Shown piece after piece: positions 11,302-60,128 of a stretch of DNA of 64,000 bases. Every line of letters starts with the position of its first letter. The first letter of the stretch is position 1. The translations under genes and the position numbers were made by a program. Source of the DNA: Peptoniphilus genitalis (GTDB lineage: Bacteria > Bacillota > Clostridia > Tissierellales > Peptoniphilaceae); the NCBI RefSeq assembly GCF_023614525.1, contig NZ_CP097885.1, positions 990,501 through 1,054,500 on the forward strand, given 5' to 3'. The notes below the pieces were generated by a model. That model worked only from the letters and a program-made list of their open reading frames with translations, was not told where the DNA came from and made no database searches.

Positions 11302-11396
11302 ATGCTTATTAAGATTATTTTTATAACAAAACAATACTTTTGGCAAATATAATTAAATTTATTCTTATATATATATCAAAAAGTATAGTTCTGTTG

Positions 11397-11402
11397 TATA
11401 AT
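11397..11402 (+). promoter_or_regulatory. -10 element of the giant surface-protein gene
   Basis: Consensus TATAAT at 11397-11402, in TTGTATAAT context. The -35 region 17 nt upstream (TATCAA) is weak. It predicts a leader of about 70 nt before the AGGAAGGAG ribosome site. Confidence 0.55.
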
Positions 11403-11477
11403 ACAGGTATAAAACGTTTTTATAATAAATTAGAAACAAAAAATTTTTCATTGAGAAAATATAGGAAGGAGAAAAAA

Positions 11478-34047: not shown

Positions 34048-34086
34048 TACATTCTCAAGATGGATTTAAGAAAAAGGAGAAAGAAA

Positions 34087-35199
34087 ATGACAAAAATTTT
34101 AGCACCAAGTAAGTTTGACGTAGTAGGATCTTTTTTGAGACCAAGAGATTTAAAAATCGCAAGAGAAAAGTTTTCTAAGGGAGAAATTTCAGGTGAAGAA
34201 CTTAAAAAAGTTGAAGACAGAGAAATAGAAAAACTTGTGAAGAAGCAAAAGGAAGCTGGCCTAAAAATAATTTCTGATGGAGAATTTAGGAGGTCCTGGT
34301 GGCACTACGACTTCTTTTGGGGACTTGAAGGAATAGAAAAATATACTTTAAGTCAAGATGAACTCATCCACTTTCATGGAGAAACCCTAAGACCTGATGG
34401 GATAAAAATTGTTGGAAAGCTTGGAGGTAAAAACCATCCCTTCTTAGACCACTACAAATTTGTAAAAGGATTTGAAGATGAAAATACTGTGGCAAAACAA
34501 ACAATTCCATCACCAGCTCAACTCCTAAGAGGAGTTTACAATCAAATCAAAGCTGGTAATCCCTACGAAGATGAAGGTAAGTTTGTGGACGACCTTGCAA
34601 GAGCATATGGCGAATTCTTCCAAGAAATTTATGACTTAGGATGCAGAAACTTACAAATAGATGATTGCACTTGGGGAGCCCTAGTAGATGAAGATGCAAC
34701 AAGACTTTATGAAAAAGATGGCAAAAACATCGAAGACCTTAAGAAGATCTACTTAGAAATAAACAACAAGGCCATAGCCTATGCACCAGAAGGACTAAAT
34801 ATTACAACTCACATCTGCAAGGGAAACTACAAGTCTTCCTTCCACTTCAAGGGAGCCTACGACGCAGTTGCAGATTATGTCCTAGCAAGAGAAAATGTGA
34901 AGGCCTTCTATCTTGAATACGATGACGAAAGATCTGGTGACTTCAAGGCCCTTGCCAAAATTCCAGCAGGCAAGAAAGTTGTCCTTGGCATTGTGACAAG
35001 CAAGAGACCAGAGCTTGAAGATAAGGAAGAGTTAATTGCAAGAATTAAAGATGCGGCAAACTACATTCCACTAGAAAATATTTGTATCTCACCCCAATGT
35101 GGATTCTCATCAACAGAAGAAGGCAACGCAGTGACAGAAGAAGACCAATGGAAGAAGATAGCCCTTTTAAAAGAAGTAGCAGAAGAAGTTTTGATTTAA
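34087..35199 (+). CDS. MetE-like (YxjG/YxjH family) cobalamin-independent methionine synthase-type protein, copy 1
   Basis: 370 residues, the length of the catalytic MetE C-terminal barrel alone, without the N-terminal MetE domain. It starts with KFDVVGSFLRP and carries DGEFRRSWWHYDFFWG, IDDCTWG, the zinc ligands His and Cys in THICKGN, and a further Cys in ISPQCGF. Such short forms (YxjG/YxjH) are thought to methylate homocysteine, perhaps with a donor other than polyglutamyl methyl-THF. Control by a methionine-type T-box supports a methionine role. The ATG at 34087 follows AAGGAG. A second copy follows 21 nt downstream. Confidence 0.85.
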   Translation: MTKILAPSKFDVVGSFLRPRDLKIAREKFSKGEISGEELKKVEDREIEKLVKKQKEAGLKIISDGEFRRSWWHYDFFWGLEGIEKYTLSQDELIHFHGETLRPDGIKIVGKLGGKNHPFLDHYKFVKGFEDENTVAKQTIPSPAQLLRGVYNQIKAGNPYEDEGKFVDDLARAYGEFFQEIYDLGCRNLQIDDCTWGALVDEDATRLYEKDGKNIEDLKKIYLEINNKAIAYAPEGLNITTHICKGNYKSSFHFKGAYDAVADYVLARENVKAFYLEYDDERSGDFKALAKIPAGKKVVLGIVTSKRPELEDKEELIARIKDAANYIPLENICISPQCGFSSTEEGNAVTEEDQWKKIALLKEVAEEVLI

Positions 35200-35220
35200 G
35201 GATTTAAAAGGAGAAATAAG

Positions 35221-36333
35221 ATGACAAAAAATTTAGCGCCAGGTAAGTTCGAAGTAGTAGGATCCTTTTTGAGACCAGAGATCTTAAAAAAAGCTAGAAG
35301 AGATTTTGAAGATGGAAAAATCAAGGCAGAGTGCCTAAGACAAGTTGAAGATGAGGCAATAAGAGAGCTTGTGGAAAAAGAAAAAAATGCAGGATTAAAG
35401 TTTTATACAGATGGAGAATTTAGGAGGTCTTGGTGGCACTTTGATTTTTGGTGGGGCTTTGAAGGTTTAGAAAGAGAAATAGATAAAAATGATAGTTTTG
35501 ATTTTAATGGAAAAAAACTGAGAAGAGAAAATATCAGAGTAAAATCTAAAGTCTCATCTAAGAATCATCCCTTCCTAGACCACTTTAAGTTTATACAAAA
35601 ATTTGAAGAAGACGACTTCACACCAAAGCTAACAATACCAGCCATAGCAGTTTTCTTGGCCCAATCAATTGATTCAACTATAGGTATAGAGGATGTATAT
35701 GATTCTACAAGAGAATTTATTGATGACCTTGTAAAGGCATATGTAGAATTTGTAGATGAATTTTACAAGATTGGAGGCAGGGTCCTACAATTTGATGATG
35801 TAAGCTGGATTGGAACAGTTGACGAAAACTACAGGAAGAAATACGAAAATTCTGGCAAGACTATTGATGAACTTAGACAAGAATTCTTAGACTACAACAA
35901 TAAAATTTATGAAAGAGCTCCAAAGGACTTGCAAATCTTAACTCACATCTGCAGGGGAAATTTCATGAGTCACTGGCTTTACCAAGGAGCCTATGATGAT
36001 GTTGCCGACTATGTATTTGCAAAAGAGGACATCGATGGATTTTTCTTAGAATACGACGATGAAAGATCTGGAGACTTCAAGGCCCTTGCAAAAATACCAG
36101 AAGGCAAGAAAGTTGTCCTAGGTCTTGTAACAAGTAAGAGACCAGAGCTTGAAGACAAGGATGAGTTAATTGCAAGAATTAAAGAAGCCTCAAATTATAT
36201 TCCTCTAGAAAATATTTGTATCTCACCCCAATGTGGCTTCTCATCAACAGAAGAAGGCAACGCAGTGACAGAAGAAGACCAATGGAAGAAGATAGCCCTA
36301 CTAAAAGAAGTAGCAGAAGAAGTTTTTATTTAA
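35221..36333 (+). CDS. MetE-like (YxjG/YxjH family) protein, copy 2
   Basis: 370 residues, same length and motifs as copy 1 (FRRSWWHFDFWWG, FDDVSWIG, THICRGN, ISPQCGF), so both probably bind zinc. It differs widely from copy 1 in its first 280 residues, including the middle segment LAQSIDSTIG in place of the copy 1 loop. The last 40 codons are almost identical even at silent positions. The pair may differ in methyl donor or thiol acceptor. AAAGGAG precedes the start. Expressed from the same T-box leader. Confidence 0.85.
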   Translation: MTKNLAPGKFEVVGSFLRPEILKKARRDFEDGKIKAECLRQVEDEAIRELVEKEKNAGLKFYTDGEFRRSWWHFDFWWGFEGLEREIDKNDSFDFNGKKLRRENIRVKSKVSSKNHPFLDHFKFIQKFEEDDFTPKLTIPAIAVFLAQSIDSTIGIEDVYDSTREFIDDLVKAYVEFVDEFYKIGGRVLQFDDVSWIGTVDENYRKKYENSGKTIDELRQEFLDYNNKIYERAPKDLQILTHICRGNFMSHWLYQGAYDDVADYVFAKEDIDGFFLEYDDERSGDFKALAKIPEGKKVVLGLVTSKRPELEDKDELIARIKEASNYIPLENICISPQCGFSSTEEGNAVTEEDQWKKIALLKEVAEEVFI

Positions 36334-42514: not shown

Positions 42515-45500
42515 TTAGAGGTTTGGCTTTTCTATTTGAACTAGCTGATAGCTTTGACCATTTTTTATAGCCTTTAGATAAACATCTTCAAAACCATCTA
42601 GTGATATTTTTATAATATCACCTGCTTTTAAATTATAAATACTTATAGATTTTGTAGAGGTCTTATTATAGATTTTAATGTTACCTTTATTTAGATCTAC
42701 AAAAGTATTATTTTCTAGCTTCTTAACGAGGGCTTTTTCTTCTATTTGGCTTAGCCAGTCACCATTATCTGGGTGATCTTTTTTTAGCCTTATCTTTCTA
42801 TTTTCAGATTCTGCAAAAATAATTTTTTTAAGTTGAGTGTTTGGCTTAGGATTTTTTCCTTCGCTTGGTTGTACATTATTATTTTCGGAACTTGGATTAT
42901 TATTTTCTTTAGTTTCAGGATTTTCAATTTGAACTAAGTTGTAGCTTCTTCCAAATTTTTCAGCCTTAACAAAGACGTCCTTATAACCAGGGACAATTAT
43001 CTTCACTATATCCCCGATATTTATACCTCTAACTCCAAGAGAAGAATTAGTATATACATAGTAGCCTCTTTCTAAAGAATTAGTTGTCGTAAAATTTAGT
43101 TTTTCTCCACTAAGATATATAGAAAGAGTAACAGTAGACCCTTTTAGAAGGTTAAGCCAAGTTTTAGTCTCTTCATTATTTCTGTCTATGGCAATTGCCT
43201 TATTTTTCTTATCTGTAAGGAGTTTAGGTGTCTTAGCATCCTCTTGTGAAGGCTTGACTTCATCTTTAAACTCAGCAGAAATATTTATTCTTCCGTCCTT
43301 AACCATATCCTGTGTAATGACTTTTGATTTTAAGGCATCACTTGATAAAATTTCTGAGCCATCATTTATTTTCCATCCAAGGAAGACTTTACCACTTATA
43401 CTTGGATCTTCAATCTTGTAGCTTCCAGAATCACTTGTCAAGTCTGCGAAAGTTTTTCCAAGAATTCCCTTTAGATTATCGCTTGAAGAGCCACCCATAT
43501 TAACTAACACTTCTACTATCACTTGGCTTGGTTTTTTTACAAGCTTATTAACTGCTTCTTCAACTAGTTTTAAATCATGCTTAATATCATCTTCTGTAGC
43601 ATTATCGAAGTCATATCCTGCAAATCTATTTAAGAAGTTTTCTAAAGTTTTCCTTGAATCTTCTGTGTAAGATTCATCTTTTGTTAGTTTTAAAGCTTCT
43701 TCTAGCTTTTTCTCTAGTATTGATGAATCGCCAATTGTTATCAAAGAGTCAAGTGAATTTTGCAAGTCTTTTAAGGCCACTTTTAAAGCTTCCTTATCAT
43801 TAGAATCTTTTAAGGAGTCTGCTTTTGCTATCTCGGCTTTCAAGGCATCAAAGGATTTTTTTGTAAACTTAGTTTCATCTTTTTCCTTTGCAAGATCAAT
43901 TTTTTCTTGGAGTTGTTTCTTTAGATTTACAAGTTCCTTATCAACTTTATCCTTTTCGACTATAACAACAAAAGGTGATAGGCTATCTACTTCAAAGCTT
44001 ACGCTGCCCTTTTCGACAGTTGATGTATAAGTTTTTAAACCATTCTTTGAAAGGTGCTTTATAATAGCCTTTCTTCCATTGTTTTCTTCACCAACAGGCA
44101 AGCTTATTTTAAGTTTTCCTTGATAGTCACCAAGTATTTTTATATCAAAGGATTTTACGATTTCATAAAGCTTGTCTTGTGTAGGTTTTAAAGTTTTATA
44201 ATCCTTTAAAATAGTTTCAGGAACTGTTATTGTAACCTTACCATCCTTTTTAGTGGATTTATCTACAACCACAAGCTTTGCATCTTTCGTAAGTTTTCCT
44301 TCTATATTAACATTAGAAGTTTTGTCATCTAATTTACTTTCAATATAATCCTTTTTTGTATTTGAATCTGGTTTATTATTTTGGTCCTTATCTTCAGTAA
44401 CTTCTTTAGAATTTTCAACCCAAACCTTGTCCCAAGATTCTTCATATCCATCCTTATAAGTGTAATAAGTTTCTGTAACTTCATTTATGATAGGGTAGTT
44501 TACAGCTGACATAATTTGCAAGTATGCCCAATGAGATTTTTGAACATCAGAAAATTCTTTTATTTTAGAATTATTTTTCTTTAGGTCATCTAATGTCAAA
44601 TATCTATTAGATAATTTGTTTAGCATAGTAACTGTTTCCGCTCTAGTGACTTTTCCATCAGGTTTAAAGCTTCCATCTGGATAGCCCTTTATTATTCCAT
44701 TGGCACTAGCTCTTAATATTGCGGCTTCAAACTCATGACCTGCAATATCATTAAATCTTGGTCCACCTGACTTATCTGCTAGAAGGGGATATAACATTCT
44801 AACAAATTCTCCCCTAGTCATAGGGACATCAGGTCTAATGTTGCCATTCTTAGCAAGCAACATTCCCTTAGATATTGTATAGTTGAGAGCTTGGTTGTAC
44901 CAAGAGTCTTTTGCGTCCTTAAAGTCTGCTTTTAAGTTTGATGCAGTGGCATTTTCTAAGACCCAAAGCATTTGAGCAGCTTCAGCTCTTGTGACAGAAC
45001 TGTCTGGTTTAAATAATCCATTAGGATAGCCAGCTATAAAAGATTTTTGAGAAGTCTTTTTAGTATGCTTAACTTTTGTTGGCGAATATTTTTTTGTTAG
45101 CCTGTATTCATAATGACCTGTGGATTCTATCTTTGGCTTGGCAATATTTTTATTTGATTCTTCCTTAATAGGATCTTTTTCTTCTACAATTGAAGTATTG
45201 TTATCAGCAGGTGTATTGTTATTTTCTGTTGATGGATTTTCACTAGGCTTATCTTCAGGCTTTGTGTCATTTAGAAATACAAAGTCAGAGCTTTTTGCTT
45301 CAATGCCATTAGCAAGTTCTACAGAGAAAACAATTTTTAAAAGTTTCGTTTCTGGGAAGTCTCTTTTTATATCATTTTCTTTAATATCAATTTCGTATTT
45401 GTTATTTGGCACAGAAGTCCTATCTTGATTGTTATTTGGAAGCTTCTTAATGTCATAGTATTTTTCATCTAAAATGTGATCTTCAAATTTTGGAACAGTT

Positions 45501-48325
45501 GCTCTAGTAGTTGCATCTAAATCTTGTCTTGTTTCATAAGAACTTTTATCAATCCTATAAATTGTAAGCTTAGGATAAGCAGTTTTAGAAAGGTTTTGCA
45601 ACTCAGAGGAGTAATTTACTTTTCCGTTATTTAATTTTGCATGGAGCCTAGTGTTATCATATTTATTAGCTATAACTTTTTTATCATCTAGATTCATATC
45701 CAGTTTGATATTTTTTGTTTGCTCCTCAAACTTATTATTGAAGTAAGAAACAAGTTCCTTCTTTTCTTCATTGTTAAGACTTGCTTTGTTAGCAAGTTCT
45801 TTAGCTTTTTTAATTGCTTCTTTGAAAGCATCTATAGTTGAAGAATTTTTACCAATATTTACACCTGCTTGATTTAGGGCAGATTCATTGATTGTAATAT
45901 CATTAATATAATTTTTTGCAGCATTGACACTTTCATCTGAAATATCTAGCTCTTTTTCAGGAAGATAAGGTCTTTCTTCCTTTTCTCCCTTAAAGGCAAC
46001 TAATAAATATGGTATTTTTGGGTAGTTACTTGCAACAGCCTTTAAGCTAAGGGGCACATATCCATCAAGCTTAATATCTATTTTATCGTCTACTTTTAAT
46101 CCGTAGATATATAAGAAGTTTCCATCAACCTTATAGCCCTTTTGTCCAAGAATCTCATCTTGAACAAGATTTAACTTTTCCTCTCCAAGTTTGACCTCTC
46201 CTTCGCCCTTAGCTAATTTTTCTAGCCAAGCCTTGGAGTCCTCGCTTCTATTATTGATTTGAGTTGATTTGTTGTGGAAAGAATTAGTAACAAGTTCAAC
46301 TCTTTTTAGGAATTTGCCTGGTTTTTTATCTTCAAAAACAGGTGGGGTTTCACCCTCAACCTTATCTTTACCATTAGGGTTTATAAGAGTTTTTCCAATT
46401 TTTTCATCATCTAACTTTTTAGGAAGAGAGCTATGTCCCCAGAATTCAGGATATTCTTCTGCTATTCTTCCGGTTCCTTTTTTACCATTATGGACACTTC
46501 CAACAACATTTTTTGTTATTTCAATGCCATCTTCCTTAGCAAGTGTTTCAATGCTACCATTACCAGCTCTTAGGTAAGCAGACTTTGTTGATATGATTCC
46601 ATCTCCACAAGCCGCATATCCACCTTCTCCACTTTGACCAGTTCCACCCATAAGGGCAAGACCTCCGTCACCTAGAACTTTACCCTTATTTTTAAGAACA
46701 AGAGCATTACCACCACGAGATGTAGTTGCAGTAGTTCCACCACCATATACATAAAGATTTGAATCTTTTAAGACAGTAAGAGATCCACCATCAATTTCCA
46801 TACCGGTTTGACCTCTATAAGGCAAGCCATTTGCTTCACTTCCTGTTGGAGATTCATCTCCTTTTACAAACACATTTCCCTTTATAAAGGCCTTACCCTT
46901 AACAAGGACAACAGGTCTTGTATTTTTTATAGCCTTATTGGCATCTGTCAAATTATTTGTATTTGAATAAATATAAGAGCTTTCCAAAACCGCTCCATCA
47001 TTTAGGATAATTTGTCCTTGGATAGATGATCCAGAAACAACTTTTGCACCTGAAGACTTTCCAAACTCACCTTGAAAAGTCCCCTTAGGGTCGTAGTTTA
47101 TCCTAAGCCTACCGCCATTAACTGTTATTCTTCCATAAATTGATGAATCATGAACATTTAGAGTAGCCCCTTTTTTTACAATTATATTTACTCCAGAGAA
47201 GACCTTCATATTTACAAGTGTAAGATTAGTTCCTTCTTCTAGGACGAAATTTTGAATAGGAATTCTTTCTTCATCAGGTCTATATTGGAATTTATTTTTA
47301 TCTGGATTTTCACTTATTGGCAAAATCAATCCTAATTGTCCATAGGTTCCACTTTCATGAGATCCTTGCCATAGATTTATATTCTTGGGAACAGTAAAGG
47401 ATTGATTAGCTCCCCTATTGTTTTCATTGAAATAACCAATATACCAAGGCTCCTGATTAAATAATACCTTGTTATTTTGAGTTGTTTTAAGCTTTGTATT
47501 TACATCCTTCATAACCTTGTCGAGGTAAGTCGATTCTATATCAGAAACAGAGAACCAAGCGGCATTGCTAGTTGCCTTTCTGCCATATATATCAACTAGT
47601 TCAACCTTCACAGGATAGTCACCAACATTTTTTGGTTCACCTGCTAGAGTAATAGAAGAGTCTAGAGCGTTAAAGTTAGCTTTCATTCCAGACTTAGGGT
47701 CTAAAGTTATTTTTGTTAATCCCTTATCAACTTCTATATCAGATTTGGAAAGCTCTTTCCAAGCTTTTGGATTAGGAGCTTCATTTTCTTCAGTTATTTG
47801 ACCATAGACTTTTATGTCGGAGTTCTTGTTGTCACTTGCAGCTCCAGTTGATGCACTTACTGCATCATACTTTCTTTGTCCCACAAGAGCACCTTCAAAG
47901 TAACCCTCTAACTTTAAGTGAATTTTTCCCTTTGGTGGATGGGCTAAATCTATACTTTCGCATTTACCATCCTTTAGGATAAAATGAAGATCACTTCCGT
48001 CATTTAGATTAAGAGTTATTGTGTGTTTGTTCTTAATAGTCTCTATGTAAAGTTTTCCATTTTCAATAGCATAACCCTTTTTCCTAGAAGTCCAACCGAT
48101 GCTATTCTTTAGCATTTTTTCGTGAGTAAAAACTGTGTCAGTCTTTATTCCTGAAATTTTATCTATGGTCTCCTTTGGCTCGATGGAAAATTCCATATAT
48201 TTATCCGACGTCTTTTCTAGTTTTAAACTTACTTTTTTGTCATTTGTAGCTTGTGCAAATACACTTATTGAATTGAATAAAAGTGTTAAGCACAAGATAA
48301 AAATTACAGATGTTTTTTTTATCAT
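42515..48325 (-). CDS. Giant surface protein with internal SLH repeats (1,936 residues)
   Basis: Signal peptide MIKKTSVIFILCLTLLF... is cleaved after Ala24 (SVFA). Order: an N-terminal beta domain (about 28-115); a Gly/Asn-rich segment (about 340-600) of short repeats resembling a beta-helix; a copy of a roughly 95-residue domain (FLKRVELVTNSF...YIYGLKVDDKI); FIVAR-like helices; three SLH repeats (about 1090-1280, AGYPNGLFKPDSSVTRAEAAQ); a beta domain; two FIVAR-like bundles (about 1460-1595); an internalin-type repeat (about 1603-1690); and two more copies of the 95-residue domain (about 1703-1800 and 1828-1936), each ending (S/Q)YxLVQIE. SLH in mid-protein, rather than at an end, is unusual. 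AAGGAGG fixes the start. Confidence 0.82.
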   Translation of the reverse strand: MIKKTSVIFILCLTLLFNSISVFAQATNDKKVSLKLEKTSDKYMEFSIEPKETIDKISGIKTDTVFTHEKMLKNSIGWTSRKKGYAIENGKLYIETIKNKHTITLNLNDGSDLHFILKDGKCESIDLAHPPKGKIHLKLEGYFEGALVGQRKYDAVSASTGAASDNKNSDIKVYGQITEENEAPNPKAWKELSKSDIEVDKGLTKITLDPKSGMKANFNALDSSITLAGEPKNVGDYPVKVELVDIYGRKATSNAAWFSVSDIESTYLDKVMKDVNTKLKTTQNNKVLFNQEPWYIGYFNENNRGANQSFTVPKNINLWQGSHESGTYGQLGLILPISENPDKNKFQYRPDEERIPIQNFVLEEGTNLTLVNMKVFSGVNIIVKKGATLNVHDSSIYGRITVNGGRLRINYDPKGTFQGEFGKSSGAKVVSGSSIQGQIILNDGAVLESSYIYSNTNNLTDANKAIKNTRPVVLVKGKAFIKGNVFVKGDESPTGSEANGLPYRGQTGMEIDGGSLTVLKDSNLYVYGGGTTATTSRGGNALVLKNKGKVLGDGGLALMGGTGQSGEGGYAACGDGIISTKSAYLRAGNGSIETLAKEDGIEITKNVVGSVHNGKKGTGRIAEEYPEFWGHSSLPKKLDDEKIGKTLINPNGKDKVEGETPPVFEDKKPGKFLKRVELVTNSFHNKSTQINNRSEDSKAWLEKLAKGEGEVKLGEEKLNLVQDEILGQKGYKVDGNFLYIYGLKVDDKIDIKLDGYVPLSLKAVASNYPKIPYLLVAFKGEKEERPYLPEKELDISDESVNAAKNYINDITINESALNQAGVNIGKNSSTIDAFKEAIKKAKELANKASLNNEEKKELVSYFNNKFEEQTKNIKLDMNLDDKKVIANKYDNTRLHAKLNNGKVNYSSELQNLSKTAYPKLTIYRIDKSSYETRQDLDATTRATVPKFEDHILDEKYYDIKKLPNNNQDRTSVPNNKYEIDIKENDIKRDFPETKLLKIVFSVELANGIEAKSSDFVFLNDTKPEDKPSENPSTENNNTPADNNTSIVEEKDPIKEESNKNIAKPKIESTGHYEYRLTKKYSPTKVKHTKKTSQKSFIAGYPNGLFKPDSSVTRAEAAQMLWVLENATASNLKADFKDAKDSWYNQALNYTISKGMLLAKNGNIRPDVPMTRGEFVRMLYPLLADKSGGPRFNDIAGHEFEAAILRASANGIIKGYPDGSFKPDGKVTRAETVTMLNKLSNRYLTLDDLKKNNSKIKEFSDVQKSHWAYLQIMSAVNYPIINEVTETYYTYKDGYEESWDKVWVENSKEVTEDKDQNNKPDSNTKKDYIESKLDDKTSNVNIEGKLTKDAKLVVVDKSTKKDGKVTITVPETILKDYKTLKPTQDKLYEIVKSFDIKILGDYQGKLKISLPVGEENNGRKAIIKHLSKNGLKTYTSTVEKGSVSFEVDSLSPFVVIVEKDKVDKELVNLKKQLQEKIDLAKEKDETKFTKKSFDALKAEIAKADSLKDSNDKEALKVALKDLQNSLDSLITIGDSSILEKKLEEALKLTKDESYTEDSRKTLENFLNRFAGYDFDNATEDDIKHDLKLVEEAVNKLVKKPSQVIVEVLVNMGGSSSDNLKGILGKTFADLTSDSGSYKIEDPSISGKVFLGWKINDGSEILSSDALKSKVITQDMVKDGRINISAEFKDEVKPSQEDAKTPKLLTDKKNKAIAIDRNNEETKTWLNLLKGSTVTLSIYLSGEKLNFTTTNSLERGYYVYTNSSLGVRGINIGDIVKIIVPGYKDVFVKAEKFGRSYNLVQIENPETKENNNPSSENNNVQPSEGKNPKPNTQLKKIIFAESENRKIRLKKDHPDNGDWLSQIEEKALVKKLENNTFVDLNKGNIKIYNKTSTKSISIYNLKAGDIIKISLDGFEDVYLKAIKNGQSYQLVQIEKPNL

Positions 48326-48362
48326 TGTGTCCTCCTTAAATTGATAAATATTATCGATAGAT

Positions 48363-48391
48363 ATTTTAGCAAAATTATTTTTTGTAAGCAA
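48363..48391 (-). promoter_or_regulatory. Promoter of the second giant surface gene
   Basis: On the minus strand: TTGCTT, 17-nt spacer, TAAAAT, about 40 nt before the start codon. A TATCGATA palindrome lies just downstream of the -10. Confidence 0.6.
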
Positions 48392-48532
48392 TAAAGATAA
48401 AAGCATCTTAAAAAATCTTTAGATATTTATAATTTGATTCCTTATGACTAATAGAATATATGCTTCTTTTAAGAAAAAATAAGAAAATAGTGGTACAATA
48501 GGTCAAGTAGAGAGGGATACTCAGGTGATGGT

Positions 48533-52086: not shown

Positions 52087-53447
52087 TGTGTGGCGTTATA
52101 GGAATCTACTCACAAAATGATGTGAGTAAAAAATTATTTTACGGACTCAATTCCCTTCAACATAGGGGACAAGAAGCATCAGGTATTTGTGTATTTAATG
52201 GAGAGGACATGATATTAGACAAGGGTATGGGACTTGTCTATGACAACTTTGATGATGAAAGCTTCTTGAAGCTAAAGGGAAATGTTGGGATTGGTCACGT
52301 TCGTTATGCAACAGCAGGCGGATCCTATAGGTACAACTCACAACCCCTACTTGCCTTTTCAAAGAACAGAGAGTTTGCTCTTGCTCACAATGGAAACCTT
52401 GTGAACCATCAATCAATTAGGGATGAGCTTGAAGAAGAAGGCATGCTTTTTCAAACTGCAATCGACACAGAAGTTATCCTTTCACTAGTTGCTAAATATT
52501 ACAAGGGCGACATTGTAGAAGCAGTTAAGAAGACCATGGCAAGAATCAAGGGAGCCTACAGCGTTGTAATGCTTTTTGAGGACAAGCTAATTGCCTTTAG
52601 GGACCCAAATGGTTTTAGACCACTTCTTATTGGCAGGGCAAAAAATGGAGAAGTAATAATTGCTTCTGAAAATGCTCCTCTTGAAATAATTGGAACTGAT
52701 GCCATAAGAAATGTTGAACCTTCAGAAATTATTGTTGTAGATAAGAAGGGAATCCACTCAGACTTTTTTGAAAAAGCTGAAAAGAAACACTGCATCTTTG
52801 AGTATGTTTACTTTGCAAGAACTGATGCCACTTTAGACGGAGTTAACTCCTACAACTTTAGGAGAAGGTGTGGAGAAATCTTATCGAGAGAAGCTCCTGT
52901 TGAGGCAGACCTTGTAATTGCAGTTCCAGACTCTGGTACCCCAGCTGCCATGGGTTATGCACAAGAATCTGGTATTCCTTTTGCAGAAGGTCTTGTTAAA
53001 AACAGGTACATGGGAAGGACCTTTATCAAACCAACTGCTGAAGAAAGAGAACTTTCTGTAAAATTAAAACTTAACCCTCTTGAAACTGTTTTAAAGGGAA
53101 AGAGAATTATCCTAGTTGATGACTCCATTGTAAGAGGAACAACTTCCAAAAATCTCATCAAGAGGATGAAGAAGGCTGGAGCCAAGGAAGTCCACATGAG
53201 GATAGTTTCTCCTCCAGTAAAATTCCCTTGTTATTATGGAATTAACACACCTTCCAGACAAAAACTTATTGCTGCAAACTATTCTGTAGAAGAAATGCGA
53301 AAGAAGATTGGAGCAGATTCCCTTGCCTTTATATCCATGGAGGGAATGTTAAATGCTACTTTGATGAAAGAAAATAAATTCTGCGAAGCTTGCTTTAATG
53401 GAACTTACGCAGTGGAGCCAAAGGAGTTAGTTCAAGATGAAAAATAA
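52086..53447 (+). CDS. purF: Amidophosphoribosyltransferase PurF
   Basis: 453 residues. The N-terminal nucleophile Cys2 directly follows Met1 (MCGVIGIYS), so no propeptide. The glutaminase domain has LQHRGQEASG, GHVRYAT and AHNGNLVN; the phosphoribosyltransferase domain has the PRPP loop ILVDDSIVRGTTSK. It makes phosphoribosylamine, the first committed step of purine synthesis. AGGTGG lies 7 nt upstream. It overlaps purL by 11 nt. Confidence 0.96.
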   Translation: MCGVIGIYSQNDVSKKLFYGLNSLQHRGQEASGICVFNGEDMILDKGMGLVYDNFDDESFLKLKGNVGIGHVRYATAGGSYRYNSQPLLAFSKNREFALAHNGNLVNHQSIRDELEEEGMLFQTAIDTEVILSLVAKYYKGDIVEAVKKTMARIKGAYSVVMLFEDKLIAFRDPNGFRPLLIGRAKNGEVIIASENAPLEIIGTDAIRNVEPSEIIVVDKKGIHSDFFEKAEKKHCIFEYVYFARTDATLDGVNSYNFRRRCGEILSREAPVEADLVIAVPDSGTPAAMGYAQESGIPFAEGLVKNRYMGRTFIKPTAEERELSVKLKLNPLETVLKGKRIILVDDSIVRGTTSKNLIKRMKKAGAKEVHMRIVSPPVKFPCYYGINTPSRQKLIAANYSVEEMRKKIGADSLAFISMEGMLNATLMKENKFCEACFNGTYAVEPKELVQDEK

Positions 53448-56400
53448 TGTTAAGAGAATTTATATCTGCAAGAAAAATGAATTTGACCACCAATCAAAGG
53501 CCCTAAGAGAAGAAATTAAAAACTCTCTTGGAATCGAAACTACTTATATAAAGACCTACAGGAGATACGACGTAGACATAAAAGATGAAAGCTTAGAAAA
53601 AACTTTGGCCAGCGTTTTTTATGAAGCTCCAGTAGAAGAAGTTTATTATGAAGACTACAAAAAATTAGAAGAGTCCTTTGAAAATCCTATTGGAATCCAA
53701 TACCAAGCAGGACAATTTGACAACAGGGAAGAGGGACTTATCCAAACTCTTGCCCTTTTCACTGATGAAAAGCTAAGAGCCAAGGTCACAGAAGTTTATG
53801 ACATTGGAGGAGTAAGCCAAGCTGACCTTGAAAAGATTAAGGCCTTCTTGATTAACCCAGTTGACTCTCAAGAAGTTGATGTATATAAGGAAACTGAACT
53901 TAGGGAAGATGCAAAGGAAAATCACGAAAATCTAGTTTATGATGGCTTCAATAAACTTGACAAGGATGGACTTATTAAATTTGTTGAAGAAAAGTCTCTT
54001 GCCATGAGTCCAGAAGACTTAGAGGTATTGCAAGACTACTTCAAGTCAGAAAACAGGGACCCCAATGAAACTGAAGTGGCAATAATTGATACTTATTGGT
54101 CTGACCACTGTAGGCACACAACTTTTAACACAGAACTTGACGTTGACTTTAACGTAGTGACTGAACTTGACAAGGAAATCAAGAGAGTTTTTTACGACTA
54201 CCTAAAGATGAGAGAAGAGCTTGGAGTTAAAAAGCCAGTTACCCTAATGGGACTTGGCACAATTTTATCCAAGGAACTTAGAAAAAATGGAAAACTAGAT
54301 GACCTAGAAGTTTCATCTGAAATAAATGCCTGCTCTGTAAAGATTAAGGTAAAGGTAGAAGTTGATGGCAAGATAGAAGACCGCGACTATCTACTTATGT
54401 TTAAGAACGAAACCCACAACCACCCAACAGAAATTGAACCTGTTGGCGGTGCCTCAACTTGTCTTGGTGGTGCCATAAGAGATCCACTTTCTGGTAGGTC
54501 CTATGTTTACCAAGCTATGAGGGTAACTGGAGCAGGAGATCCTTTCACTCCAATTGAAAAAACTCTTGAAGGAAAATTACCACAAAAGAAAATTGTCACA
54601 GAAGCAGCACTTGGCTACTCTTCTTATGGTAACCAAGTTGGAGTTGCAACTGGACTTGTTGACGAATTATACCACCCAGGCTATGTGGCAAAGAGGATGG
54701 AAACTGGTGCAGTTATAGCAGCTTGTCCTCTTGAAAATGTAAAGAGAATAGAACCTACTGAAGGAGATGTAGTTATTCTTCTTGGTGGAAGAACTGGTAG
54801 AGATGGAATTGGTGGAGCAACTGGCTCATCAAAGTCTCACAATGTTTCTTCTATTGAAACAGAATCTGCCCAAGTGCAAAAGGGTAACGCTCCAGAAGAA
54901 AGAAAGATTCAAAGACTATTTAGAAATCCAAAAGCAGCAAAGTTAATCAAAAAGTGTAACGACTTTGGTGCAGGTGGAGTTTCCGTTGCCATTGGCGAGC
55001 TTGCAGACTCCATCGAAGTAAAACTTGACAAGGTTCCACTAAAGTACATGGGACTAAAGCCAAGAGAAATTGCAATTTCAGAATCTCAAGAGAGAATGGC
55101 AGTTGTTATAGACAAAGACGACGTAGACAAATTTATGGAACTTGCTGACAAGGAAAATCTTGAAGCTACCTTAGTTGCTAGGGTAACTGGTGACAATAGA
55201 TTAAAGATGTACTACAAGGACGAACTTATCTGCGACATGAGTTACGACTTTGTAAACCAAACTGGTGCCAAGAGATTTGAAGAAGTTGAAGTTGTAAGCG
55301 AAGATCTTCCAAAATTCTTAAATAAGAAGGATGGACTAGAAGATCTTGAAAAATATTTACAAGACTTAAACATAACTTCTAAGAAGAATATGATTGAGCT
55401 CTTTGACTCATCAGTAGGAGCATCAACAGTTTTGCAACCTCTTGGAGGTAAAAAACAAAATACACCAGCCCAAGTTATGGCAGCCCTTATCCCAACAGAT
55501 GATGGCGAATCGAGAACAGCTTCAGTCATGTCTTACGGCTTTAATCCAAAATTATCTGAAGAATCACAATTTCTTGGCGGCTACTATGCAGTAGTTGAAT
55601 CTATTGCAAAACTTGTGGCAGCAGGTGCACCACTTGAAGGCATTAGACTTTCCTTCCAAGAATTTTATGAAAAGATGGACAACAAGAAGTCATGGTCAAA
55701 GCCACTTAAGTCACTTCTTGGAGCCCTAAAGGCATCAAGATTCTTTGACGCACCACCAATTGGGGGCAAGGACTCCATGAGTGGAAGCTTCGAGGACATA
55801 AATGTTCCACCAACATTAATTTCCTTTGCAGTAAATATTGTTGATGCGAAAAACATCATCAGCCCAGAATTTAAGGGCAAGGGTAAACTTGGACTTATAA
55901 GAACAAAGAGAGATGACATTGGAGCCCTTGACCTAGACATGGCAAAAGAAAACTTCCTAAGCCTACAAAAAGAAATTGAGGCAGGAAATGTAATTTCTGC
56001 TGCAGCTATAACTCATAAGGGTAGCCTTCCACAAATTTTTGAAATGGCAATAGACAATGTGGGCTTTGATATAAAATTAGATGACCTATACTCACCACTT
56101 TATGGATCCTTTATAGTTGAGTACCTAGAAGATAGGGACTTCATAGAAAAACTTGGTGAATTCACAGAAGATGAAATGATTGTCAATGGAGAAAAATTAG
56201 ATATAGAAAAACTATCTAAGGCATATCTAACTACAATGGATAAAATCTTCAAGCCACTTGACTCACATAAACTTGAAAAGATTGACCAAGCTAAGGCTCC
56301 AAAGAGAAGGATGAAGTCTAAGAAGCCAGTTGATGAAGTTAAGGTTGTTATCCCAGCCTTCCCTGGCACAAACTCAGAATACGACACAGCAAGAGCCTTT

Positions 56401-57105
56401 GAAAGAGCTGGGGCAAAACCAGAAGTTGTAATCTTTAGGAACAAGGACGACAAGGCTCTTCAAGAATCTATAGAGGAATTGGCAGAAAAAATTTCCAAGG
56501 CACAAATTCTTGCAATACCTGGAGGCTTCTCACTAGGAGATGAACCAGGTGGATCTGGTAAATTTATTGCCAATGTAATTAGGTCTGAAAAAGTTAAGAA
56601 GGCAATCGAAACACTATTAGATGACAACGACGGACTGATCCTTGGAATTTGTAACGGCTTCCAAGCTCTAGTTAAGACAGGACTTCTTCCTTATGGCAAG
56701 ATCAAAGACCTTGAAGAAGATGATTCAACTCTAACATACAACACTTGCTCAAGACACATTGCAAGAGTTGTAGACACAGTAGTAATGTCAAACAATTCAC
56801 CATGGCTTGCTAAACTTGACGAAGGCAAAACTTACAAGGTTCCAATTTCTCACGGAGAAGGAAGATTCATTGCAAGTGAAGAAGCTATCAAGGAAATCTT
56901 AGACAAGGAACAAGTTGCGCTTTGCTACGCAGATGCACCAAATGGCTCAGCATTAAATGTTGAAGCACTTATGTCAGAAGACGGAAAAATCCTTGGCAAG
57001 ATGGGCCACAGCGAAAGATTTATAGAAAATACTTTCAAGAACATCAGAGACATGGAACTTGAAGACATCTTCACAGCAGGAGTAGAATTCTTTAAGGCAG
57101 ACTAA
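53437..57105 (+). CDS. purL: Phosphoribosylformylglycinamidine synthase, single-chain PurL (PurL-PurQ fusion)
   Basis: 1,222 residues, large single-chain form. The N-terminal half has the FGAM synthase motifs YWSDHCRHTTF, KNETHNHPTEIEP and GIGGATG. A second AIRS-like half follows, with PLGGKKQNTPAQ and GGKDSMSG. The C-terminal glutaminase (about 965-1222) has PAFPGTNSEYD, the nucleophile Cys in LGICNGFQAL and HGEGRF. It converts FGAR plus glutamine to FGAM. The last 198 bp are repeated at 58643-58840, beyond a three-gene insert, so this 3' end may have been replaced during insertion. Confidence 0.96.
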   Translation: MKNNVKRIYICKKNEFDHQSKALREEIKNSLGIETTYIKTYRRYDVDIKDESLEKTLASVFYEAPVEEVYYEDYKKLEESFENPIGIQYQAGQFDNREEGLIQTLALFTDEKLRAKVTEVYDIGGVSQADLEKIKAFLINPVDSQEVDVYKETELREDAKENHENLVYDGFNKLDKDGLIKFVEEKSLAMSPEDLEVLQDYFKSENRDPNETEVAIIDTYWSDHCRHTTFNTELDVDFNVVTELDKEIKRVFYDYLKMREELGVKKPVTLMGLGTILSKELRKNGKLDDLEVSSEINACSVKIKVKVEVDGKIEDRDYLLMFKNETHNHPTEIEPVGGASTCLGGAIRDPLSGRSYVYQAMRVTGAGDPFTPIEKTLEGKLPQKKIVTEAALGYSSYGNQVGVATGLVDELYHPGYVAKRMETGAVIAACPLENVKRIEPTEGDVVILLGGRTGRDGIGGATGSSKSHNVSSIETESAQVQKGNAPEERKIQRLFRNPKAAKLIKKCNDFGAGGVSVAIGELADSIEVKLDKVPLKYMGLKPREIAISESQERMAVVIDKDDVDKFMELADKENLEATLVARVTGDNRLKMYYKDELICDMSYDFVNQTGAKRFEEVEVVSEDLPKFLNKKDGLEDLEKYLQDLNITSKKNMIELFDSSVGASTVLQPLGGKKQNTPAQVMAALIPTDDGESRTASVMSYGFNPKLSEESQFLGGYYAVVESIAKLVAAGAPLEGIRLSFQEFYEKMDNKKSWSKPLKSLLGALKASRFFDAPPIGGKDSMSGSFEDINVPPTLISFAVNIVDAKNIISPEFKGKGKLGLIRTKRDDIGALDLDMAKENFLSLQKEIEAGNVISAAAITHKGSLPQIFEMAIDNVGFDIKLDDLYSPLYGSFIVEYLEDRDFIEKLGEFTEDEMIVNGEKLDIEKLSKAYLTTMDKIFKPLDSHKLEKIDQAKAPKRRMKSKKPVDEVKVVIPAFPGTNSEYDTARAFERAGAKPEVVIFRNKDDKALQESIEELAEKISKAQILAIPGGFSLGDEPGGSGKFIANVIRSEKVKKAIETLLDDNDGLILGICNGFQALVKTGLLPYGKIKDLEEDDSTLTYNTCSRHIARVVDTVVMSNNSPWLAKLDEGKTYKVPISHGEGRFIASEEAIKEILDKEQVALCYADAPNGSALNVEALMSEDGKILGKMGHSERFIENTFKNIRDMELEDIFTAGVEFFKAD

Positions 57106-57150
57106 GTTAGTAAAAATATAAAAAAATTTTGGGCTACATTTGTAGTCCAC
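56908..57150 (+). repeat. Direct repeat copy A: purL 3' end and hairpin
   Basis: 56908-57105 matches 58643-58840 with only four differences in 198 bp. Weaker similarity extends about 20-25 bp upstream (IKEI..EQVAL in both). Downstream, a hairpin TGGGCTAC / GTAGTCCA (57130-57149) sits 24 nt after the stop, the same distance as the related hairpin in copy B, but it lacks a T-run. Confidence 0.85.
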
Positions 57151-57225
57151 AAATAATTTATATTTACTAAAAATTTGTGTAAGTTTATGAGATTTTATTA
57201 ATATTTCTGTTTTAGCTTAATTTAA

Positions 57226-57254
57226 TTGTAATTTATATGTCTAAGTTGTATACT
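57226..57254 (+). promoter_or_regulatory. Promoter of the inserted cassette
   Basis: TTGTAA (57226-57231), 17-nt spacer, TATACT (57249-57254), with a predicted start near 57261. The leader would be only about 17 nt, which supports ATG 57278 as start of the first gene. Confidence 0.6.
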
Positions 57255-57277
57255 AAAACAAAATAGGGATGGTGAAA

Positions 57278-57868
57278 ATGATTTTAGTAGATAACGATAT
57301 ACGAAAATATAAAAATATTATTGTTCCTTTTGACGAAGAAAGTTTGCAAAGTGAATCTTATGATTTACACATAGGTGAAAAAATTTATGTATTAAAAAAT
57401 GATGTTCAAACTATTGATTTAAGAGATAATGATATTTTAAAAAACTTGTATGAAGAAAAAGAACTAAGTGATTTTGGATATAGTATAGGACCAAACGAGT
57501 TTATTCTTGCATCTTTAAAAGAAAAGGTGGATATTCCGAATGGTGTAAGTGCACATATAATGCCTCGAACAAGATATATTAGAGCTGGGGTATATGTATC
57601 TGCTCAACATATCAATTCAACTTACTCAGGTAGATTGAGAATAGGTATTTATAACTTGCAAAATAGACCATTAAGAATATATCCAGACTTAGGAATTTGT
57701 CAAATTGTTTTTGAAAAACTTAATGAATTACCATCTGATAATAAATTATATAAAAATAAAATTGATGCAATTTATCATAATGAAGATATTAAATTTATTG
57801 GTCCTTTTTCTGATGAAGAAGATGATAAAATAGATAAAATTGTTGAAAAAATAAAAGATGGTAATTAA
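57278..57868 (+). CDS. dCTP deaminase/dUTPase-fold protein, probably non-catalytic
   Basis: 196 residues. SESYDLHIGE (25-34), PRTRYIRAGV (96-105), QHINSTYSGRLRIGIYN (110-126) and LRIYPDLGICQIVF (132-145) align with the RSSLARLG, ...DPGxxG...LEFxN and LxPGxxIgxLxF blocks of Dcd. The Dcd catalytic Glu of LEF corresponds to Gly123, and the dUTPase catalytic Asp to Asn113, so both acids seem lost. The C-terminal 35 residues are acidic and helical. It may bind a nucleotide as a sensor. Dcd-type enzymes act in phage defence by depleting dCTP, but this one may not. It is AT-rich compared with purL and sits first in the cassette. An in-frame ATG at 57269 lacks a site. Confidence 0.75.
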   Translation: MILVDNDIRKYKNIIVPFDEESLQSESYDLHIGEKIYVLKNDVQTIDLRDNDILKNLYEEKELSDFGYSIGPNEFILASLKEKVDIPNGVSAHIMPRTRYIRAGVYVSAQHINSTYSGRLRIGIYNLQNRPLRIYPDLGICQIVFEKLNELPSDNKLYKNKIDAIYHNEDIKFIGPFSDEEDDKIDKIVEKIKDGN

Positions 57869-57870
57869 TA

Positions 57871-58305
57871 ATGGGAAAAGAATTGGACAAACTTATTGAT
57901 TTAGCTATATCTAACAGCCAAGAATATAGCAAGCTAGATGCTAAGACCAAAGATTTAGTCGAGGAAAAATTGAAATCTGAAATTTTAGCAGAAATTAAAC
58001 AAGAAGTTTCTAGTAAGGCAATTAAGGATGCTAAGAGTAGATTAGATGAAGAAAGAGCTATGAATAAATTAAGAGATTATAAAGAACTCACTGTTATAGG
58101 TATTGTTTTAGCTTTTCTTATAGGTCTTTCTGTAAATCAAGTTAGTGATTTTATAGGGTATATAAAAAATATAGGCAAATTAATTGATAAAGAACCTTGG
58201 GTTAGTGTAACCTTTGCTCTAATAATAATTGGTATTTGCATAGGTATTATTAATTTTGGAATCTTTAAAGAAATTAATAATCTATCAAAAAATAAAAAGG
58301 TGTAG
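57871..58305 (+). CDS. Coiled-coil protein with two membrane helices
   Basis: 144 residues. Residues 1-70 are charged and helical with Leu/Ile heptads (coiled-coil likely). TM1 is about 73-91 ([16 protein letters not shown]), TM2 about 110-131 ([23 protein letters not shown]), and the C-terminus is short and basic. It has no signal peptide or enzyme motif and no family I know. It starts 2 nt after the Dcd-like stop and ends 2 nt before the DUF1653 gene, so the three form one unit. A small membrane protein paired with a nucleotide-binding protein would fit an effector-sensor pair, which is a hypothesis only. Confidence 0.65.
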
Positions 58306-58307
58306 TT

Positions 58308-58541
58308 ATGAATAGGCAAATTTTTATAAATAGGACTTATAGACATTTTAAAGGTAATTACTATGAGGTTCTTAATATTGCAACACATAGCGAAACAGGA
58401 GAGTTATTTGTAGTATATAAAGCGTTGTATGGAGACTTTAAAATTTATGTTAGACCATTCGATATGTTTATATCTAAAGTGGACAAAGTTAAATATCCTG
58501 AAGCCAAACAAGTCTATAGATTTGAATTAGTATTAGAATAA
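58308..58541 (+). CDS. DUF1653 domain protein
   Basis: 77 residues. [22 protein letters not shown] followed by [20 protein letters not shown] is a close match to the DUF1653 consensus (YrHFKGn.YeVl.iA.hSET.E..VvY.alYgd...wvRP..mF). The domain is a small beta barrel of unknown role, found widely in Firmicutes. AAGGTG precedes the ATG. Third and last gene of the cassette; very AT-rich. Confidence 0.8.
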
Positions 58542-58642
58542 TATGGATATAAATTATTAGTAAATTGTGTTTCGTAGTTAATAGTGTAAAATATATACTT
58601 TTTGCAAATAATATTAGTAAAATAAAGGAAATTTTTGGAAAC

Positions 58643-58840
58643 GAACAAGTTGCACTTTGCTACGCAGATGCACCAAACGGCTCAGCATTAAATGTTGAAG
58701 CACTTATGTCAGAAGACGGAAAAATCCTTGGCAAGATGGGCCACAGCGAAAGATTTGTAGAAAATACATTCAAGAACATCAGAGACATGGAACTTGAAGA
58801 CATCTTCACAGCAGGAGTAGAATTCTTTAAGGCAGACTAA
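58643..58840 (+). pseudogene. Duplicated purL 3' fragment (direct repeat copy B)
   Basis: Encodes EQVALCYADAPNGSALNVEA... to the purL C-terminus FFKAD and stop, 65 codons. It is identical to the end of purL except for four base changes, one of them Ile to Val. No start or ribosome site; it is a remnant. Upstream, about 20 nt still resemble purL (KIKEIFGNEQVAL against AIKEILDKEQVAL). This is either the original chromosomal end displaced by insertion or the end brought in with it. Confidence 0.88.
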
Positions 58841-58864
58841 TTAAAAATAAATATATAAATATCT

Positions 58865-58893
58865 AGGGGCTAGTTTTCTAGTCCCTTTAAAAT
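58865..58893 (+). terminator. purL terminator, copy B
   Basis: AGGGGCTAG / CTAGTCCCT 9-bp stem (one wobble), TTTT loop, followed by TTTAAAAT. It lies 24 nt after the stop of the purL fragment. The homologous but altered hairpin is at 57130-57149. Confidence 0.65.
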
Positions 58894-58946
58894 ACAAATT
58901 TTTAGGAGTATAATTTAGTAAAATAAAAATTAAAGAGGGGGAGAAT

Positions 58947-60128
58947 ATGTTACTTAAAGAGATTTTTGACGAGATAGATAAGAGACAAGATGAGATGGTA
59001 AAACACCGTCGCCACATTCACGAGAACCCAGAGCTTTCCTTTGAAGAGGTTGAGACTGCGAAGTACCTTGCCGACTACTACAAGAGCAAGGACGTAGAGG
59101 TCACAAAAAATATGGGAGGCAATGGACTTAGAGTTGTCATTGACACAGGTAAGCCTGGCAAGACTATTGCCCTTAGGGCAGACTTTGACGCTTTGCCAAT
59201 TCAGGAAGAGACAGGGCTTCCCTTTGCATCAAAAAATCCTGGCGTAATGCACGCTTGTGGTCATGATGCTCATACAGGCTACCTCATGGTTTTGGCAGAC
59301 ATCTTGCGAGAAAAGAAAGACCAACTAAGGGGCAAGATTGTAATTATCCACCAACACGCAGAAGAGACACCACCAGGGGGAGCAAAGCAAATGATTGAAG
59401 CTGGAGTTCTTGATGGAGTGGACAATGTCATTGGTATTCACGTAATGTCAGCCGTGGACTATGGAGATGTTCAATACCACAAGGGCAACACCCAAACTAG
59501 TAGGTCAAAGTTTTCTATTAAGTTCCAAGGTGTAGGCGGTCATGGATCTATGCCCCACCTAGCAAATGATTCTATAGTTGCAGCTTCACACTTCGTAACA
59601 GCAGTTCAAACTATTGTATCAAGAAGGCTGTCTCCCTTTGAAAACGGAGTTGTTACAATTGGATCCTTTGAAGGTGAAGGAAGTTTTAATATAATAAAGG
59701 ACTCTGTGAGACTAGTAGGAGACATAAGGTCCATGTCAGATGAAACAAGAGAAAAAATTGAAAAAGAAATAGAAAGAATTGCCAAGGGAATTGGCGAAAC
59801 TTTTGGCATGGAAGTCCAAGTAGAATGCAAAAACGACTACCCAGTCCTCTACAACGACCCAGCCATGACAGACCTAGTAGTAGATGCAATTAAAGAAGCA
59901 GATATAAAAGAAGTCAAAAAAATTTATGATGGTGGACCTCAAACAGCATCAGAAGATTTTGCCTACTACGCAAAGGAAAGACCATCTTGTTTTTATTTCG
60001 TTGGAGCAAAAAAAGAAGACGCACCCTATGCAAACCACAATCCAAAATTTGACATCAGAGAAGATGCAATGGTTATTTGTGCAAAGACCATGGCAGCAGT
60101 AACAGTGAAGTATTTAATGGAAGACTAA
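58947..60128 (+). CDS. M20-family amidohydrolase (N-acyl amino acid hydrolase type)
   Basis: 393 residues. RRHIHENPELSFEE at the start, the metal motif MHACGHDAHT (Cys/His/Asp), HQHAEETPPGGA and a central GVGGHGSMPHLANDSI dimerisation region place it in the IAA-amino-acid hydrolase/hippurate hydrolase group (M20D). It cleaves N-acyl groups from amino acids; substrate unknown. GAGGGGGAG precedes the ATG. A single-gene unit with its own terminator. Confidence 0.9.
   Translation: MLLKEIFDEIDKRQDEMVKHRRHIHENPELSFEEVETAKYLADYYKSKDVEVTKNMGGNGLRVVIDTGKPGKTIALRADFDALPIQEETGLPFASKNPGVMHACGHDAHTGYLMVLADILREKKDQLRGKIVIIHQHAEETPPGGAKQMIEAGVLDGVDNVIGIHVMSAVDYGDVQYHKGNTQTSRSKFSIKFQGVGGHGSMPHLANDSIVAASHFVTAVQTIVSRRLSPFENGVVTIGSFEGEGSFNIIKDSVRLVGDIRSMSDETREKIEKEIERIAKGIGETFGMEVQVECKNDYPVLYNDPAMTDLVVDAIKEADIKEVKKIYDGGPQTASEDFAYYAKERPSCFYFVGAKKEDAPYANHNPKFDIREDAMVICAKTMAAVTVKYLMED

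Follow-up and report, generated by a model that had tools for sequence, protein, structure and literature searches.

A repeat-bracketed three-gene insertion behind purL of Peptoniphilus genitalis as a candidate abortive-infection module with a putative pseudoenzyme sensor

We describe a small, AT-rich block of three genes that lies behind purL in Peptoniphilus genitalis. The block is part of a 64-kb stretch of DNA (the window: bases 990501-1054500 of a 1.92-Mb genome that is a single contig, 99.98% complete), and all of its features lie on the forward strand. We found that the 3' end of purL is present on both sides of the block, that several congeners have the site without the block, and that the three genes recur side by side in other genomes and in a phage contig. 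Gene 1 encodes a protein with the fold of dCTP deaminases (DCD) and dUTPases in which catalytic residues are replaced, gene 2 a small protein with two hydrophobic segments, and gene 3 a DUF1653 protein. From sequence comparison and structure prediction, we propose that the trio may be an anti-phage abortive-infection module, composed of a pseudoenzyme sensor and a membrane effector and carried on an element resembling a cis-mobilizable element (CIME). We hold this reading tentatively, at a probability of roughly 0.45.

The purL gene itself (53437-57105; 1222 aa; TIGR01857, 1528 bits) is intact. Its last 198 nt (56908-57105) recur 1,735 bp downstream at 58643-58840 with 194 of 198 positions identical, the mismatches falling at 56919, 56943, 57022 and 57033; with its surroundings, the repeat covers 56887-57148 and 58622-58884 at 91% identity. 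The right copy, which ends in a stop codon, extends upstream by about 20 diverged nucleotides (58622-58840 in all): the 21 nt preceding its 198 nt match purL at 15 of 21 positions (equalled by 0 of 1,496 cassette windows; shuffle p ~1e-4) and encode IKEIFGN, the purL counterpart being IKEILDK. Over this longer comparison the copies mismatch at 10 of 219 sites. What the preliminary description had reported as a changed upstream junction is thus at least partly a diverged extension of purL. The DNA preceding the right copy also resembles the promoter region of the M20-type gene that follows (29/40, matched by 1 of 200 shuffles). A GGGCTA...TAGTCC hairpin stands after both copies, with differing loops and flanks, and a terminator scan flagged neither (0 sites versus 0.3 expected).

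The 1.5 kb between the copies has a GC content of 25.2%, the minimum of the 64-kb window when sampled every 100 nt, compared with 38.9% in purL and 41.9% in the next gene. It holds three open reading frames (ORFs): gene 1 (57278-57868; 196 aa; PF22769, 1.7e-29), whose start was picked to agree with relatives (alternative start, 57269); gene 2 (57871-58305; 144 aa); and gene 3 (58308-58541; 77 aa; PF07866, 9.1e-26), which ends 80 bp before the right repeat. None of the three is recombinase-like, and no integration or transfer gene is among them. The anatomy thus agrees with the preliminary description, which had named the duplicated purL end, the three genes and the lack of an integrase or transposase. 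That description had also credited the block with its own promoter. The hexamers TTGTAA-17-TATACT do lie upstream of gene 1 (57226-57254), but a promoter scan returned 12 promoter-like sites against 13.4 +/- 3.6 in shuffled sequence, and we dropped the promoter as evidence because such sites occur at chance level. A known RNA within the block was likewise rejected, the single match being a sub-threshold snoRNA.

Alignment across the genus revealed purL sites with a single gene end. In 5 of 13 congeners (G013, G003, G004, G010 and G001), purL is followed about 75-111 bp later by the M20-type gene, annotated by eye as a peptidase, that stands right of the block here (58947-60128; with its native spacer, 58841-60128). 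Seven of the remaining eight have other genes after purL, and in G007 the M20-type gene is 3.6 kb on; a 695-aa ORF lies between the two there (L028), and a second purL end is absent. None of the 13 yielded gene 1 or gene 2 (G011 has a match to gene 1 alone, of 24 bits and 25% identity), and the block, used as a DNA query genus-wide, gave matches of at most 23-74 nt in 7 of them. A search of 130 genomes of the bacterial family, blind to very short or very diverged second ends, matched the purL end in 115 (E <= 0.001) and found two true copies in this genome only. In G011 (L027, G011:C3), a 220-N gap splits purL within the duplicated region and mimics a second end. The trio is therefore not fixed behind purL among relatives, and a block ancestral to the genus was rejected on the same two grounds, the empty sites and the missing cassette. 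We conclude that the block is an insertion behind purL.

The DNA on either side of the block differs in its affinities. The sequence after the right stop aligns with G013, the nearest species (score 156), and with G003 (147; shuffle maxima 37 and 32), which identifies the right flank as the old one. The left post-stop DNA with its hairpin (57106-57148) is close to the G004 purL spacer: counted from the stop codon on, 46 nt match at 41 positions (score 67; shuffle maximum 36), compared with a score of 35 against G013 (shuffle maximum 31), and this spacer is the block's best non-self match genus-wide (38 nt, 92%, E 4e-8). Because its best match is the purL spacer of another species, the left post-stop DNA probably arrived with the insert. 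Together with the empty sites, the foreign-like left side and the native right flank bear out the earlier view of an insertion at a gene's 3' end with that end restored. At the four mismatched positions, the left copy agrees with G013 at 56943 and the right copy at 57022 and 57033; at 56919 neither does, the right copy's A being that of the other eight aligned congeners. This pattern fits the entry of a circle by a crossover inside the repeat, and a wholly donor-derived left copy fits about as well; the coding parts may also have been made alike by gene conversion. The suggestion that one copy came from a different purL allele is plausible, yet the four sites fit both models. Entry could have been that of a satellite mobilised in trans, of a decayed element, or by homologous recombination, and we claim none of these; four tyrosine recombinases are encoded elsewhere in the genome.

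The alternative that survives best is that homologous recombination, for example of relatives' DNA joined at purL, produced the duplication in place of an att-type element, with the cargo as a passenger. We regard it as a serious competitor, if on balance a somewhat improbable one. On general grounds, a nearly identical stretch of 198-263 bp gives RecA homology enough; the resemblance of the left post-stop DNA to another species' purL spacer and the lack of an integrase in the block are as this explanation predicts, and the four-site pattern does not discriminate. However, simply joining ends at the 198 bp would not produce the diverged purL extension (15/21), and a similar bracket elsewhere in the genome has just 38 nt of coding homology.

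This second bracket came from a scan for direct repeats of 50-700 bp at spacings of 0.5-10 kb in 464 kb (the window and 20 further stretches of the genome), in which it was the one gene-end case besides purL. It lies at a U5-methyltransferase gene (PF05958; L191 1817-6558, G000:C1 1146816-1151557), where a second copy (91.6% identity), 4.55 kb downstream, repeats the final 38 nt of the gene together with 30 nt of spacer and 122 nt from the first cargo gene. The block between the copies (27% GC) encodes an HNH protein, AbiD (PADLOC, 6e-90) and, in two ORFs, a split PDC-S50. In G011 no gene separates the methyltransferase gene from the one that borders the block on the right in the present genome; G013 carries the AbiD block and a 30-nt gene-end fragment at this site; and G003, G006 and G012 have larger blocks at a RumA-like methyltransferase site, which by eye look conjugative or phage-like. 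The 464-kb sample thus contains two cases of cargo that lacks a recognised recombinase and is enclosed by a duplicated gene end, and one of the two sites, that of the methyltransferase, is a multi-element hotspot. Matches of 41 nt (83-85%) to a stretch near the 3' end of the methyltransferase gene also lie away from the gene, in G011 (L212 5810-5850) and G012 (L216 5171-5211).

The three genes of the purL block travel together elsewhere. An unverified phage contig of 84.7 kb, obtained from human faeces, has all three next to one another (46%, 32% and 68% identity to genes 1, 2 and 3). A scan of 84,980 species genomes, one per species, with a two-sequence alignment and two short peptide patterns gave 52 DCD-like loci, a lower bound for relatives. 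Nine of these, from seven genomes, belong to the family of gene 1: three in Anaerotignum sp. MB30-C6, three in records titled Lachnospiraceae, and one each in Eubacteriaceae, Clostridia and Oscillospiraceae. Against a family profile, the nine and the phage locus scored 295-346 bits, and every other DCD in the loci searched with it (L063-L147) at most 102. A small gene with two hydrophobic segments follows gene 1 at all ten loci, and DUF1653 is present at nine, being missing from L094. Counted as distinct loci, with Anaerotignum taken once and the window added, gene 1 is present in 9/9 (by selection), gene 2 in 9/9 and gene 3 in 8/9. For seven of these nine loci, the identities between pairs of loci are correlated among the three proteins (r 0.76-0.89; Mantel p 0.0004-0.012), as expected for genes that travel together, although host kinship could add to this. 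Identity to the window proteins is lowest for gene 2 (18-33%) and highest for DUF1653 (51-67%), and the GC content of the cassette is below that of its flanks at all 8 non-window distinct loci.

Further searches placed bounds on this distribution. In IMG/VR, neither gene 1 nor gene 2, the two-sequence alignment or the purL fragment retrieved relatives; an eight-sequence alignment found 10 loci there (two partial), with the family motif in none of the stretches shown. No family member was among the matches listed from plasmids and E. coli (8 of 8; best 12 of 35; otherwise no match), and phage searches gave MT835477.1 as the sole one among those listed (best 25 of 110; best 12 of 125). The gene 2 profile matched this genome only among 398 genomes of the phylum. 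Gene 1 had 21 matches at E <= 1e-8 among 391 genomes of the class, all except that in this genome at 22-30% identity.

The genomic contexts of the trio bear on its possible role. The three Anaerotignum loci have phage tail-like and NlpC/P60-like genes upstream (by eye), and their shared DNA runs only to 80-140 bp beyond the cassette; in two of the three, a tRNA-Gly or tRNA-Pro gene lies another 200-300 bp on. Because the shared DNA stops just past the cassette and a tRNA gene is near, the module appears to sit at prophage ends. In the phage contig, it lies near repressor-like and antirepressor-like ORFs (by eye). At L097 it stands between HsdS/HsdM and a YhcG-type PDDEXK nuclease (PADLOC candidate PDC-S02), and at L092 the genes after it encode an N6-methylase/specificity protein and a spbK-like TIR protein (E 3e-15). 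A 59-bp direct repeat (98%; ~7753-7811 and 11857-11915) encloses the cassette together with the methylase gene and the greater part of the TIR gene at this Lachnospiraceae locus, its downstream copy lying inside the TIR gene. L094 adjoins a HicB-like gene. Among relatives, PADLOC gave only TmtA at E 0.029 for gene 2 of L089 and nothing for gene 3 of L097. The preliminary description had pointed to defence as a frequent role of such small cassettes; association with prophage-like loci, the phage contig, and type I restriction-modification (RM) or TIR neighbours is consistent with that role here. Within the literature covered, which left subscription papers and most preprints outside, we found no work combining dCTP deaminase, dUTPase and abortive infection.

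The same contexts would also suit an accessory of prophages or mobile elements, acting in superinfection exclusion at the membrane or as a toxin-antitoxin-like maintenance module, with a toxic gene 2 held in check by genes 1 and 3. The location of the trio, at prophage ends and, in the phage contig, within the lysogeny region, speaks for such a role, as do the pairing of a small membrane protein with small partners and the HicB-like gene beside L094. We nevertheless consider it unlikely: some copies have type I RM and TIR genes as neighbours and lie in no recognisable prophage, and a nucleotide-enzyme fold would generally be unusual for an antitoxin.

The proposed sensor role turns on the active site of gene 1. 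Although gene 1 matches DCD, its score against NCBIfam TIGR02274 (dCTP deaminase) is 90.8 bits, below the cut-off of 92.8. We aligned 11 family copies with 71 other DCD-like proteins. At the position of E129 of the M. tuberculosis enzyme and E138 of E. coli, which we take to be the catalytic Glu, the family has Gly in 11/11 copies (Glu in 51/71 others). Asn replaces the dUTPase catalytic Asp of motif III in 11/11 (Asp in 52/71 others), and Thr the active-site Ser in 11/11 (Ser in 67/71); the active-site Arg is retained in every copy (68/71). The motif reads QHINSTYSG in the window and QHCNSTYSG in the closest relatives. The E. coli dUTPase chain 1rnj/1syl, presumably an inactive variant that traps its substrate, shares the Asp-to-Asn change (INSDY). 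An AlphaFold model of gene 1 (pLDDT 81, pTM 0.70, eight sequences; residues 159-177 below 50) matches bifunctional DCD-DUT structures (best E 5e-12, TM 0.72), and its best folds include E. coli dCTP deaminase variants carrying E138A, whose structures were determined in the presence of dCTP and dTTP. The simplest reading of the substitutions and the predicted fold is that gene 1 would bind nucleotide without turnover. A plain housekeeping dcd was rejected on the family profile, the sub-cut-off TIGR02274 score and the replaced catalytic residues. In a Helicobacter trogontum prophage (BK070155, L146 3001-3859), the gene of a DCD-like protein that lacks both acids precedes one for a 94-aa non-membrane protein, and the two may be a further pseudo-DCD pair.

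That gene 1 is still active, and depletes or remodels deoxynucleoside triphosphates (dNTPs) on infection like the dCTP-deaminase defence proteins, seems to us quite improbable. Its DCD fold is kept, as is the Arg, the Ser is merely changed to Thr, and Gly or Ala also stands at the Glu site in 9 other DCD-like proteins (7 Gly, 2 Ala); yet both catalytic acids are replaced in all 11 copies, and the dCTP-deaminase score falls short of its cut-off. That the repeat is an assembly artefact or arose by chance is scarcely credible, since nothing but the repeat itself speaks for it, the genome is a nearly complete single contig, the copies differ, and the trio is present in other organisms.

Gene 2 comprises a long, charged helix and then two hydrophobic segments, with AxxxGxxVNQ invariant in the first. 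It matched no Pfam, NCBIfam or PADLOC family above cut-off, and a PDB search with it returned nothing below E 2. DUF1653 was rejected as a specific marker of the module: it is present in 4 of the 130 genomes of the bacterial family, the three besides this one having it among unrelated neighbours, as do at least two of the three copies in phage contigs that we looked at.

We hypothesize that the abortive-infection module would work as follows. A non-autonomous repeat-bracketed element, a CIME-like relic or a satellite, would enter the 3' end of purL and restore it, leaving a second copy of the gene end. Gene 1, lacking the catalytic Glu of DCD and Asp of dUTPase, would bind a deoxynucleotide without turnover and so read the dNTP pool; when infection alters that pool, gene 1 would act on gene 2, whose two predicted transmembrane segments would disrupt the membrane and abort the infection. 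DUF1653 might be an accessory or restraining partner. The wider proposition, that such a dead DCD/dUTPase-fold sensor, membrane effector and DUF1653 partner form an undescribed immunity that spreads from genome to genome on integrase-less elements, with duplication and restoration of housekeeping-gene 3' ends, we regard as less likely than not.

Parts of this scheme have counterparts in known systems. The dUTPase-Stl switch of Staphylococcus aureus pathogenicity islands (SaPIs) uses a dUTPase-fold protein as a signal, not for catalysis, and the SaPI structure PDB 8p8o is among the fold matches of the gene 1 model; the purL block, however, has no Stl-like repressor. CBASS/Pycsar-type systems with two transmembrane segments pair a nucleotide-reading part with a small membrane effector. 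The trio differs in having no cyclase, its sensor would read dNTPs directly, and PADLOC and PDB searches found no sequence relation. Canonical Dcd and bifunctional DCD-DUT enzymes (4a6a, 2qxx, 4xjc, 1xs1) have the fold and much of the nucleotide site in common with gene 1, but differ from it in the Glu-to-Gly, Asp-to-Asn and Ser-to-Thr changes of all 11 copies and in its operon with gene 2 and DUF1653. The dCTP-deaminase defence proteins have a zinc-dependent deaminase fold, unlike gene 1. These anti-phage proteins (dXTPases) deplete dCTP enzymatically, and they share with gene 1 the link of a dNTP-related protein to phage defence (PMC11124354, PMC12409349). In gene 1, by contrast, the catalytic residues are replaced, and the two-segment membrane partner is always present. 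As to the element, the purL block resembles a CIME (PMC5704250) in its attL/attR-like gene-end repeats around a restored gene end and in having no integration and transfer genes. It differs in its very small size (1.7 kb) and unusually long repeat, and no integrase-bearing relative was found at purL in the 13 congeners. Phage satellites of the phage-inducible chromosomal island type carry their own integrase and replication or regulation genes (PMC13376191), whereas the purL block has no ORF of these kinds.

Several observations weigh against the abortive-infection module on a CIME-like element. The repeat exceeds what we take to be the usual length of an att core, homologous recombination through 198 bp would leave much the same picture, and no integrase-bearing element was found at purL in the 13 congeners. 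Three of the eight non-window loci (L093, L095 and L096) have metabolic or unclear neighbours, and PADLOC 2.0.0 returned no family at E <= 1 for any of the window's three proteins. Loss of both acids is not unique to the family, as they are also missing in 5 of the 71 other DCD-like proteins (L129, L133, L136, L139 and L146). The gene 2 model, though helical, is weak (pLDDT 69, pTM 0.33), and stand-alone DUF1653 genes exist.

If the proposal holds, bacteria and phages would have recruited a housekeeping enzyme of dNTPs as a catalytically dead sensor of damage to the nucleotide pool, and DUF1653, named in a single paper of the literature covered, would gain a first functional context. The trio is an unstudied, defined and directly testable module, of provisional novelty. 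The presence, within 464 kb of one genome, of two blocks that are bracketed by repeats and lack an obvious recombinase further suggests that duplicated gene 3' ends offer a simple handle for such cargo.

The direct-repeat scan also returned repeats in L183, L189 and L191 (12043-16535), at least some of them within ORFs; in L183 (6249-10314 and 11030-12265), three copies of 200-300 bp encode a small charged protein near a Tn916-type integrase. Elsewhere in the window, two tandem related genes (34060-36333; 379 and 370 aa) share a 300-nt part at 80% identity, and two very large ORFs (11340-19538 and 42515-48406; 2732 and 1963 aa) are surface-protein-like by eye, the first of them containing four copies of a 51-nt repeat.

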